NCBI RefSeq assembly: GCF_001931675.1 | Contig: NZ_CP014839.1 | Coordinates: 3,534,001 to 3,598,000 of the forward strand | DNA: 64,000 nucleotides | Origin: Pandoraea thiooxydans | GTDB taxonomy: Bacteria > Pseudomonadota > Gammaproteobacteria > Burkholderiales > Burkholderiaceae | Reading direction: 5' to 3' | Shown here: piece by piece, positions 44,998-47,722 of the stretch | Layout: every line of letters begins with the position of its first letter | Numbering within the stretch: the stretch's first letter is position 1 | The notes under the pieces: generated by a model | Databases searched by the model: none | What the model saw: the letters and a program-made list of their open reading frames with translations, nothing else | What the model was told of the DNA's origin: nothing | Made by a program: the position numbers and the translations under genes

Positions 44998-45025
44998 GCT
45001 CACGGCCCGGCTTTCGGCGGTTGCG

Positions 45026-45406
45026 TCACTCCGATGCCATACGGGTCGCCTGCCATGAAATCAGCTGCCACTGGTTTTTCTGCAGCACGTGAACGGCGAT
45101 ATAGGTCATCAACGACGACAATGGCCCGGTGGCACTCTCCAATTCGATACGGAGCTTGCCCGTGACAAGCACTGTGTCGCCGAATTCGCGCAATTCCTGG
45201 GTTTGGATCTCGATATCGTGGTAGCGGCGTCGGCCCGCTGACAGCGCACCGAGGAATTGCTCCTTGGTTTCGCGCTTGCCGTTCGAATGCACATAAAGGA
45301 GATCATCGTAGAGCATCGCATCGAGCTGCTCCACGTCGCCCTCGATCATTGCCGCATAGCGGGCTGATTCCAGGGCGCGAACCGTGTCGATATTCTTGAC
45401 AGGCAT
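45026..45406 (-). CDS. NTF2-like (DUF4440/SnoaL-type) protein
   Basis: 126 aa. ALESARYAAMIEGDVEQLDAMLYDDLLYVHSNGKRETKEQFLGAL and the following antiparallel strands (IEIQTQELREFGDTVLVTGKLRIE) form the cone-shaped NTF2 fold. Such proteins are small enzymes or binding modules; function is unknown here. It is divergent from rpoH. Confidence 0.8.
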   Translation of the reverse strand: MPVKNIDTVRALESARYAAMIEGDVEQLDAMLYDDLLYVHSNGKRETKEQFLGALSAGRRRYHDIEIQTQELREFGDTVLVTGKLRIELESATGPLSSLMTYIAVHVLQKNQWQLISWQATRMASE

Positions 45407-45554
45407 GCATGCCTCCCACGCATCATGAGTCGGAAGGATAAACTCAGGTAAATCTCAGCAGCGATATTTTCTGGAATTTATACCATGACGGCCGAGTTTG
45501 AGATGAATCAAGAAAATTCTCAGAGAAAATCCCTACATTTAATTAGAGAGTTCG

Positions 45555-45584
45555 CTTGAAACTTGCTGACACGAGGGCCCTCTA
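45555..45584 (+). promoter_or_regulatory. Sigma-32-like promoter of rpoH
   Basis: CTTGAAA (45555-45561) exactly matches the sigma-32 -35 consensus. CCCTCTA (45578-45584) follows 16 bp later and partly matches the C-rich -10. TTGAAA could also act as a sigma-70 -35, but no good TATAAT is in register. The CIRCE element begins 5 bp further, where the transcript would start. Confidence 0.5.
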
Positions 45585-45588
45585 ACGC

Positions 45589-45615
45589 TTAGCACTCTTC
45601 AATCGAGAGTGCTAA
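45589..45615 (+). promoter_or_regulatory. CIRCE operator (HrcA site) upstream of rpoH
   Basis: TTAGCACTC (45589-45597), nine-base spacer, GAGTGCTAA (45607-45615): a full match to the CIRCE consensus with the canonical 9-bp spacing. HrcA binds CIRCE and represses heat-shock genes. It ends 35 bp before the rpoH start codon, so it overlaps the likely transcription start. hrcA itself is not in the window. Confidence 0.95.
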
Positions 45616-45650
45616 AATGCCTCGTAACCGATGAACAGGAGCAACCCCGC

Positions 45651-46583
45651 TTGAGCGACGCCATGACGACCCAGTCCCATTCTCCGCTTGCCGTTAAGGC
45701 GCAGGAGGCGCGCGCCCTGACGCTTTCCCCATCCGCGATGCTACCCGCCAGCGTGGGTAATATTGACGCCTACATCCAGGCCGTCAATCGGATTCCCCTG
45801 CTGACGGCCGACGAGGAGCGCCAACTCGCCACCGAATACCGCGACCATGAAAATCTCGATGCTGCCCGCCGGCTCGTGCTGTCGCATCTGCGCCTGGTTG
45901 TGTCGGTCGCCCGCAACTACCTGGGGTATGGCCTGCCGCACGCGGACTTGATTCAGGAAGGGAATATCGGCCTCATGAAGGCAGTCAAGCGCTTCGACCC
46001 CGCCCAGGGTGTGCGATTGGTCTCGTACGCCATCCACTGGATCAAGGCCGAGATCCATGAATATATCCTGCGCAATTGGCGCATGGTCAAGGTCGCCACC
46101 ACTAAGGCGCAGCGCAAGCTGTTTTTCAATCTGCGCAGCCATAAACAAGGGGTGCAGGCGTTCACACCGGAAGAAATCGAAACGGTCGCCAAGGAATTGA
46201 ACGTCAAGCGCGAGGAAGTTGCCGAAATGGAAACCCGCCTGTCGGGCGGCGACATCGCGCTCGAGGGCAAGGTCGAAGACGGCGAAGAAGCATTTGCGCC
46301 GATCGCCTACTTGGCCGACACCCACAATGAGCCCACCGCTGTGTTGGCGGCGCGCCAACATGACCGGCTGCAAAGCGACGGTCTCGGCAGCGCGCTGGAT
46401 AAACTCGATGCACGCAGCCGCCGCATCATCGAGGCACGCTGGCTCAACGTTCGCGACGATGGCTCGGGTGGATCGACGTTGCACGATCTGGCCGACGAAT
46501 TCGGTGTCTCTGCGGAACGAATTCGGCAAATCGAAGTGACAGCCATGAAAAAAATGAAAACGGCCCTGCAGGCATACGTCTAA
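45651..46583 (+). CDS. rpoH: RNA polymerase sigma-32 (heat-shock) factor
   Basis: 310 aa from the TTG at 45651, chosen because AGGAG (45637-45641) lies 9 nt before it; an ATG at 45663 is the alternative. Region 2 (HLRLVVSVARNYLGYGLPHADLIQEGNIGLMKAVKRFDP, SYAIHWIKAEIHEYIL), the RpoH box (QRKLFFNLR) and region 4 (LHDLADEFGVSAERIRQIEVTAMKKMKTAL) are all present. It directs transcription of chaperones and proteases on heat shock. A perfect CIRCE and a sigma-32-like promoter precede it. An insertion element follows its terminator hairpin. Confidence 0.97.
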   Translation: MSDAMTTQSHSPLAVKAQEARALTLSPSAMLPASVGNIDAYIQAVNRIPLLTADEERQLATEYRDHENLDAARRLVLSHLRLVVSVARNYLGYGLPHADLIQEGNIGLMKAVKRFDPAQGVRLVSYAIHWIKAEIHEYILRNWRMVKVATTKAQRKLFFNLRSHKQGVQAFTPEEIETVAKELNVKREEVAEMETRLSGGDIALEGKVEDGEEAFAPIAYLADTHNEPTAVLAARQHDRLQSDGLGSALDKLDARSRRIIEARWLNVRDDGSGGSTLHDLADEFGVSAERIRQIEVTAMKKMKTALQAYV

Positions 46584-46609
46584 GCCGTCAATTGAAGTAA
46601 CGTCGCAAA

Positions 46610-46627
46610 CGCCCCTTCCACGGGGCG
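46610..46627 (+). terminator. rpoH terminator stem, T tract missing
   Basis: CGCCCC (46610-46615), loop TTCCAC, GGGGCG (46622-46627). The stem stands 27 bp after the rpoH stop but is followed by TAATGAG and then the insertion element, not by T residues. A run of five T residues is found just beyond the other end of the element (47985-47989). Confidence 0.6.
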
Positions 46628-46634
46628 TAATGAG

Positions 46635-46647
46635 ATGGTCACCCCCA
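46635..46647 (+). repeat. Left subterminal inverted repeat of the IS1111-like element
   Basis: ATGGTCACCCCCA, perfectly complementary to 47969-47981. Confidence 0.9.
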
Positions 46648-46680
46648 CCCTACACGCGGGTTACGCTGTAGGGTGTTTTT
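46646..46680 (+). terminator. Hairpin with T tract inside the left end of the IS element
   Basis: CACCCTACA (46646-46654) pairs with TGTAGGGTG (46667-46675); an inner GCG/CGC extends the stem, and TTTTT follows (46676-46680). It sits between rpoH and the transposase start, so it can stop readthrough from rpoH into the transposase gene. Confidence 0.75.
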
Positions 46681-46696
46681 CTTTCTGGAGGCCATC

Positions 46697-47722
46697 ATGC
46701 AGAATGTTACGCTGGTTGGAATCGATCTAGGCAAGCACTCGTTTCACCTTCATGGTCAGGACCGGCACGGCAAGGCCGTGTTTCGCAAGAAGGTGAGCCG
46801 CAAGCAACTGGTCGAGTTTTTCGCTACGTTTCACGCCTGCACGCTGGTCATGGAGGCCTGTGCCGGGGCCCATCACATGGCCCGCCAACTGGCCGGGTTC
46901 GGACACCAGGTCAAGCTTATCTCCCCCCAGTTCGTGCGGCCCTTCGTCAAGAGCAACAAGAACGACTTCGTGGACGCCGAGGCGATCTGCGAGGCGGCGT
47001 CGCGCCCGTCCATGCGGTTCGTCACGCCCAAGACGGAGTCGCAGCAAACCTTGTCGGCCCTGCACCGGGTCCGTGAGTCACTGGTGCGCGATCGCACCAA
47101 AACTATCAACCAGATACACGGCTTCCTACTGGAGTTCGGCATCAGCCTGCCGGTTGGCAACGCTGTCATCACGCGTCTGCCGGCTGTGCTCGCCGAACAT
47201 CGGTTACCGCCGCGCCTGATCGCGATCCTCGAACGCCTGCACGCTCACTTCAAGTACCTCAGTGAGCAGATTGGCGAAATCGACAAGGAGATGGCCCGCC
47301 AACTCGCCGATGACGAGCTCGGCTGCCGCCTGCTGTCGATCCCAGGCGTCGGCCCTATTACAGCCAGTGTGCTTGCCAGCGAGATGGGCGATGGTCAGCA
47401 GTACGGGTCCAGCCGCGATTTCGCTGCGTCGATTGGCTTGGTGCCGCGCCAGTACAGTACTGGCGGCAGGGCCAACCTGCTGGGGATCAGCAAGCGGGGT
47501 GACAAGAATCTCCGGCGCCTGCTAGTCCAGTGTGCCCGCTCCTACATGCAGCGACTCGATCGGCACAGCGGTCGGCTCGCCGACTGGGTCCGCGCCATGC
47601 TGAGGCGACGGCACTCGAACGTGGTGGCCTGCGCGTTGGCGAACAAGCTGGCGCGCACCGCGTGGGCGCTGGCGACTCGTCGCACCACCTTCGATGCGGG
47701 CGCGAGCGCCATGCCTGCCTAA
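46697..47722 (+). CDS. IS110-family transposase (DEDD recombinase)
   Basis: 341 aa from the ATG at 46697 with TGGAGG upstream. The N-terminal RuvC-like DEDD domain starts VTLVGIDLGKHSFHLHGQDRHGKAV (first Asp), with VMEACAGAHHMARQL (Glu) and NKNDFVDAEAICEAASRP (Asp pair). The C-terminal Transposase_20 part has LLSIPGVGPITASVLASEMGDGQQYGSSRDFAASIGLVPRQYSTGGRANLLGISKRGD, with the catalytic serine region. Full length and uninterrupted. Confidence 0.95.
   Translation: MQNVTLVGIDLGKHSFHLHGQDRHGKAVFRKKVSRKQLVEFFATFHACTLVMEACAGAHHMARQLAGFGHQVKLISPQFVRPFVKSNKNDFVDAEAICEAASRPSMRFVTPKTESQQTLSALHRVRESLVRDRTKTINQIHGFLLEFGISLPVGNAVITRLPAVLAEHRLPPRLIAILERLHAHFKYLSEQIGEIDKEMARQLADDELGCRLLSIPGVGPITASVLASEMGDGQQYGSSRDFAASIGLVPRQYSTGGRANLLGISKRGDKNLRRLLVQCARSYMQRLDRHSGRLADWVRAMLRRRHSNVVACALANKLARTAWALATRRTTFDAGASAMPA

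Follow-up and report, generated by a model that had tools for sequence, protein, structure and literature searches.

The window, the whole 64,000-nucleotide (64 kb) stretch of Pandoraea thiooxydans DNA that was analysed, carries on its forward strand an open reading frame (45651..46583) that matched TIGR02392 with 412.9 bits (cut-off 323.1) and NF005143 with 430.2 bits, and the gene is a true rpoH, as the original prediction had it. Its start codon is probably TTG at 45651, because AGGAG at 45637-45641 together with this TTG (45637..45653, forward strand) was common to the Pandoraea loci listed, unlike the in-frame ATG at 45663. Among the best 80 matches listed, the nearest RpoH came from a Pandoraea metagenome assembly (98% identity). 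In this nearest relative the contig breaks off 194 nt beyond rpoH, as would be expected if a repeated element lay there; in the window an IS110-family transposase gene (46700-47722; NF033542, 360 bits) begins about 115 nt past the rpoH stop codon.

Upstream of rpoH we found a perfect CIRCE, the predicted operator of HrcA, at 45589..45615 of the forward strand (TTAGCACTC-TTCAATCGA-GAGTGCTAA). It has 0 mismatches over the 18 fixed bases of the consensus TTAGCACTC-N9-GAGTGCTAA, so that the claim of a site exact in both arms and in spacing was correct. This was the only match at ≤3 mismatches in the window (the mean in dinucleotide-shuffled sequence was 0.01), and the whole genome (4.46 Mb, one contig) contained exactly two such sites, one in front of rpoH and the other ending 75 nt upstream of the groES start codon. 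The same genome possesses one open copy of hrcA (PF01628, 223.9 bits). These results answer two checks proposed along with the original prediction, a search for hrcA and a list of all CIRCE copies.

The rpoH CIRCE was perfect in all 30 Pandoraea-level loci (own genome included), in which the arms are fixed while the loop drifts. Among the best 80 named Burkholderiales loci the site was present at ≤2 mismatches in 79, being perfect in 66 and carrying one or two mismatches in 13; the four Cupriavidus loci in this list all had the perfect form, and the single miss (L129) has only 21 nt of upstream sequence. In addition, 61 relatives were searched, of which 57 had rpoH (G029, G034, G036 and G042 gave no rpoH-level match and were left out), and CIRCE at ≤2 mismatches preceded rpoH in 54 of the 57. 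The hrcA-bearing relative G045 had a site at 4 mismatches, and the rpoH CIRCE was absent from G003 (6 mismatches) and G055 (8 mismatches), the same two relatives, and the only ones of the 57, that lack hrcA. G003 (L034, L171), which belongs to the same genus and measures 1.2 Mb, still has rpoH and the downstream cytochrome-oxidase-like gene, as in the window, and appears to be a reduced genome which has shed both the repressor and its site. Judged by this comparison, the rpoH CIRCE is neither peculiar to our genome nor a Pandoraea oddity.

The same association with hrcA was seen in the class, that is, in the Gammaproteobacteria in the GTDB sense, which include the former Betaproteobacteria. 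An rpoH gene was obtained from 122 of 132 genomes, and 121 were read after leaving out our own (for G090, which has two copies, the copy with enough upstream sequence was used). CIRCE at ≤3 mismatches preceded rpoH in 82 of 90 genomes with hrcA versus 5 of 31 without it (Fisher p = 1e-14, although p-values of this kind overstate independence because the genomes are related); the exceptions are 8 genomes in which hrcA is present but the site is not, and the 5 that carry a site although no hrcA was detected. In a second class sample, comprising 26 members from the phylum search, 3 of which were already in the earlier set, the rpoH CIRCE was found in 5/5 genomes with hrcA and 0/21 without, so the presence of the operator follows hrcA across genomes in both samples. 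One same-genus pair, G296 (with hrcA) and G292 (without), shares GGAACTTTTT and the right-half CTGCTAAGAT, and the left arm is intact in G296 only; as read from these sequences, the pair shows a step in the loss of the left arm and of hrcA. G178 (L244) has a perfect CIRCE before rpoH, yet no detected hrcA, and it misses the A-T flank described below; its hrcA gene may have been missed or recently lost, or another regulator may use the site.

Outside the class, where 21 of the 88 genomes were looked at, none of 20 rpoH upstream regions contained a CIRCE (best 6 mismatches), nor did that of the hrcA-bearing G293 (8 mismatches). The idea that the rpoH CIRCE is general to the phylum was therefore rejected. 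Within the class, genome comparison gives good support to the control of rpoH by HrcA, since hrcA is present, the arms stay as the loop drifts, and the site and hrcA are lost together.

The operator also appears to be part of the promoter itself. In the window a predicted sigma-70-type promoter (45589..45618, forward strand) coincides with the CIRCE, with TTAGCA (45589-45594) as the -35-like hexamer, a spacer of 18 nt, TG at 45610-45611 and TAAAAT at 45613-45618, the flank AAT (45616..45618) completing the -10. An extended -10 of the form TGN-TATAAT with a -35 element at 16-18 nt is thus present as TGC-TAAAAT and TTAGCA, with 9/12 matches to the consensus, although the -35 is weak (4/6 against TTGACA) and the spacer is 18 nt long. 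A consensus promoter scan of 45400-45700 returned this TTAGCA-N18-TAAAAT with TG as its sole match, with an average of 0.5 in shuffled sequence; taken alone, the scan is weak. We then took 71 dereplicated upstream regions from Burkholderiales, anchored them on the CIRCE and tabulated the positions other than the loop. Outside the arms and loop only positions +29 and +30 rose above one bit, with A at +29 in 67/71 and T at +30 in 71/71, and the right arm and its flank together read TGC-TAANAT, an extended -10 having TTAGCA in the left arm 18 nt upstream. In the class alignment, which consists of the 87 rpoH upstream regions with CIRCE at ≤3 mismatches, T30 was present in 77/87, and A-T at 29-30 together in only 60/87.

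The CIRCE in front of groES served as a control for these positions. It was found in 27 of 30 fetched loci, which with our own genome makes 28 sites, and T30 occurred in 3/28 and A29 in 23/28 of them. Because A29 is frequent at groES too, it is not rpoH-specific, and only T30 (45618 in the window) is telling, separating the rpoH sites from the groES sites. The promoter elements also lie differently: the groES promoter (CTTGAAA, then TATTA) ends at CIRCE base 1, whereas the -10 of rpoH would be contained in the right arm, at the opposite end of the operator. The arms themselves differed between the two genes in the comparison. G at position 3 of the rpoH left arm, which brings the hexamer nearer to TTGACA, was seen in 25/87 regions, and the matching change in the right arm, which would spoil the -10, in 2/87; at groES the same left and right changes were present in 3 and 5 of 28 sites, respectively (p = 0.003 for rpoH versus groES). 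Moreover, among 55 CIRCE-less upstream regions (G066 appears twice, as G066 and L328), the right half occurred at ≤1 mismatch in 10/55 versus 3.8% of shuffles (p = 4e-5), where the shuffles, like those of the promoter-motif and sigma-E tests, kept base composition only. At the same threshold the left half was found in 2/55 and a mirrored control motif in 4/55, and the latter count speaks against the promoter reading. Three class members without hrcA (G256, G264 and G260; L313-L315) have GTGCTA(G/C)ACT just upstream of rpoH, an extended -10 that resembles the right half; it is preceded by GGAACTTTT, and there is no left arm.

It could be argued that HrcA control is real but that the right-arm -10 is no promoter, rpoH being driven by sigma-E and other promoters, and T30 representing an extended contact of HrcA. 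The abundance of A29 at groES indeed indicates that some of the flanking bases may serve HrcA. However, T30 is found in only 3/28 groES sites, where the same HrcA has to bind as well; in CIRCE-less genomes the right half survives the operator; and the arms change on one side, the one expected of a promoter. We therefore regard this explanation as unlikely. A fused operator and promoter would explain why the right arm of the rpoH CIRCE is under stronger constraint than the left.

A second candidate promoter lies beside the operator. The consensus of sigma-E promoters is GGAACTT-N16-TCTNA, and the window contains GAAACTT-N16-TCTAA at 45558..45585 of the forward strand, with a -35 one base off GGAACTT. 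The motif G(A/G)AACTT-N14-17-TCTAA was found in 30/30 Pandoraea loci (with N16 in the four loci displayed), and our genome encodes RpoE (TIGR02939, 326 bits; cut-off 236). Across the class, GGAACTT was the other conserved block besides the CIRCE: a sigma-E match with ≤1 mismatch in ten bases was detected in 48/87 site-bearing members versus 1.9% of shuffles, and a match at ≤2 mismatches in 71/87. In 47 of these 71 GGAACTT starts 16 nt before the CIRCE, so that the sigma-E -10 (TCTNA) spans the junction between left arm and loop; in the class alignment loop position 10 is T in 60/87 and position 12 is A in 67/87. In the family of the window the block starts about 28-31 nt before the CIRCE and the -10 is just outside the left arm, and in 21 of the 79 listed Burkholderiales rows its start is 12 nt upstream of the operator, with TCTAA inside the CIRCE loop in rows such as L128. 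The sigma-E promoter thus shifts in position relative to the operator, and both are retained. GGAACT at ≤1 mismatch was absent from 28/79 Burkholderiales rows when 50 nt were scanned, and over the same 40 nt it was present in 50/79 Burkholderiales rpoH regions versus 2/28 groES regions. Among genomes lacking both the site and hrcA, a sigma-E match at ≤1 mismatch was seen in 3/26 only.

The original prediction had instead placed a sigma-32-like promoter at this point, and this part was not supported, while its proposal of HrcA control finds support in the genome comparison. With such a promoter upstream and the CIRCE downstream, sigma-32 would transcribe its own gene under HrcA, as at groES, and CTTGAAA (45555-45561) and CCCTCTAA do stand at a plausible spacing in the window. 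However, CTTGAAA with CCC at N11-16 was conserved in only 1/30 Pandoraea loci, and the CTTGAAA overlaps the sigma-E-type promoter that all 30 possess. The sigma-32-like promoter was rejected, and an arrangement of this kind seems quite improbable. The least probable explanation, to which we give hardly any credence, is that the CIRCE works chiefly at the RNA level, as a stem-loop in the leader of rpoH that alters mRNA stability or translation: the perfect 9-base arms are able to pair and CIRCE has an effect on mRNA in B. subtilis, but the exact HrcA consensus is preserved in both arms, the presence of the site tracks hrcA, a transcript from TAAAAT would begin past the CIRCE, and 45000-46800 gave no match to any known RNA family. 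A known RNA thermometer at rpoH is likewise not supported by this search.

We consider it probable that the CIRCE at rpoH is a fused operator and promoter, by which HrcA would shut both rpoH promoters until free GroEL runs short. The site, hrcA, rpoE, their conservation, the shared loss of site and hrcA and the promoter motifs set against the groES control were shown by genome comparison, and from these we infer HrcA binding, repression, GroEL sensing and both transcription starts. The CIRCE would hold the housekeeping (sigma-70) promoter of rpoH, its left arm supplying the -35-like hexamer and its right arm with the flank the extended -10, and would also overlap the start region of the neighbouring sigma-E promoter. 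HrcA bound to it would then span the sigma-70 elements from the -35 through the -10 and also cover the sigma-E start region, so that both promoters would be blocked. The HrcA of well-studied bacteria needs GroEL for its activity, as established for that of B. subtilis. Unfolded protein that ties up GroEL would thus deprive HrcA of activity and release rpoH together with groESL, whose CIRCE in the same genomes (one in our own) is the same operator and presumably bound by the same HrcA. The sigma-32 produced would lead to more chaperone and to restored HrcA, closing the loop, and envelope stress would reach rpoH via sigma-E.

Some elements of this arrangement have precedents. Geobacter sulfurreducens belongs to the Desulfobacterota, outside this phylum. 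A CIRCE before rpoH, and with it HrcA control of the sigma factor, was predicted in this species (Rodionov et al. 2004, PMC545781), so that the basic observation is already in print; the operator is the same and lies 51 nt upstream of the rpoH start, whereas that prediction concerned one species, and no promoter overlap or link to the loss of hrcA is described in the relevant section of the paper. That paper refers to a study of beta-, gamma- and epsilon-proteobacteria by Permina and Gelfand (2003), where rpoH sites may already have been reported. Bordetella bronchiseptica belongs to the same order as our genome. For this bacterium the RpoE-like SigE was found to transcribe from the rpoH (fam) promoter region in vitro (PMC3490749), and the main text of that paper mentions HrcA 0 times. 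Nothing bearing on HrcA control of rpoH was found in PMC10696704 or PMC10490939, and in the open-licence full-text literature we found no report of the class-wide extent of the site, of the fusion of operator and promoter, or of the sigma-E overlap.

The P3 promoter of rpoH in E. coli MG1655, a sigma-E promoter, resembles the one described here (GAACTT-N16-TCTGA upstream of rpoH), whereas E. coli has no rpoH CIRCE (best 8 mismatches) and no match to the HrcA family, being absent from the matching genomes among the 14 controls in which it was included. The contrast with E. coli drawn in the original prediction is better described as a loss, because without HrcA and the rpoH CIRCE this bacterium has no second circuit from which the first could be separate. 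We are evenly divided on the wider reading that HrcA control of rpoH is ancestral in the Gammaproteobacteria, as a 30-bp operator and housekeeping promoter interleaved with a sigma-E promoter, and that E. coli is derived, having lost this element with hrcA and kept the sigma-E promoter. If this were true, rpoH transcription would respond simultaneously to free GroEL and to envelope stress. Teaching on the heat-shock response is based on E. coli, in which the control of sigma-32 is mainly post-transcriptional. If HrcA gates rpoH in the hrcA-bearing Gammaproteobacteria, the E. coli picture would describe lineages minus one tier of control, and the fused element would convert a chaperone shortage directly into sigma-factor synthesis.
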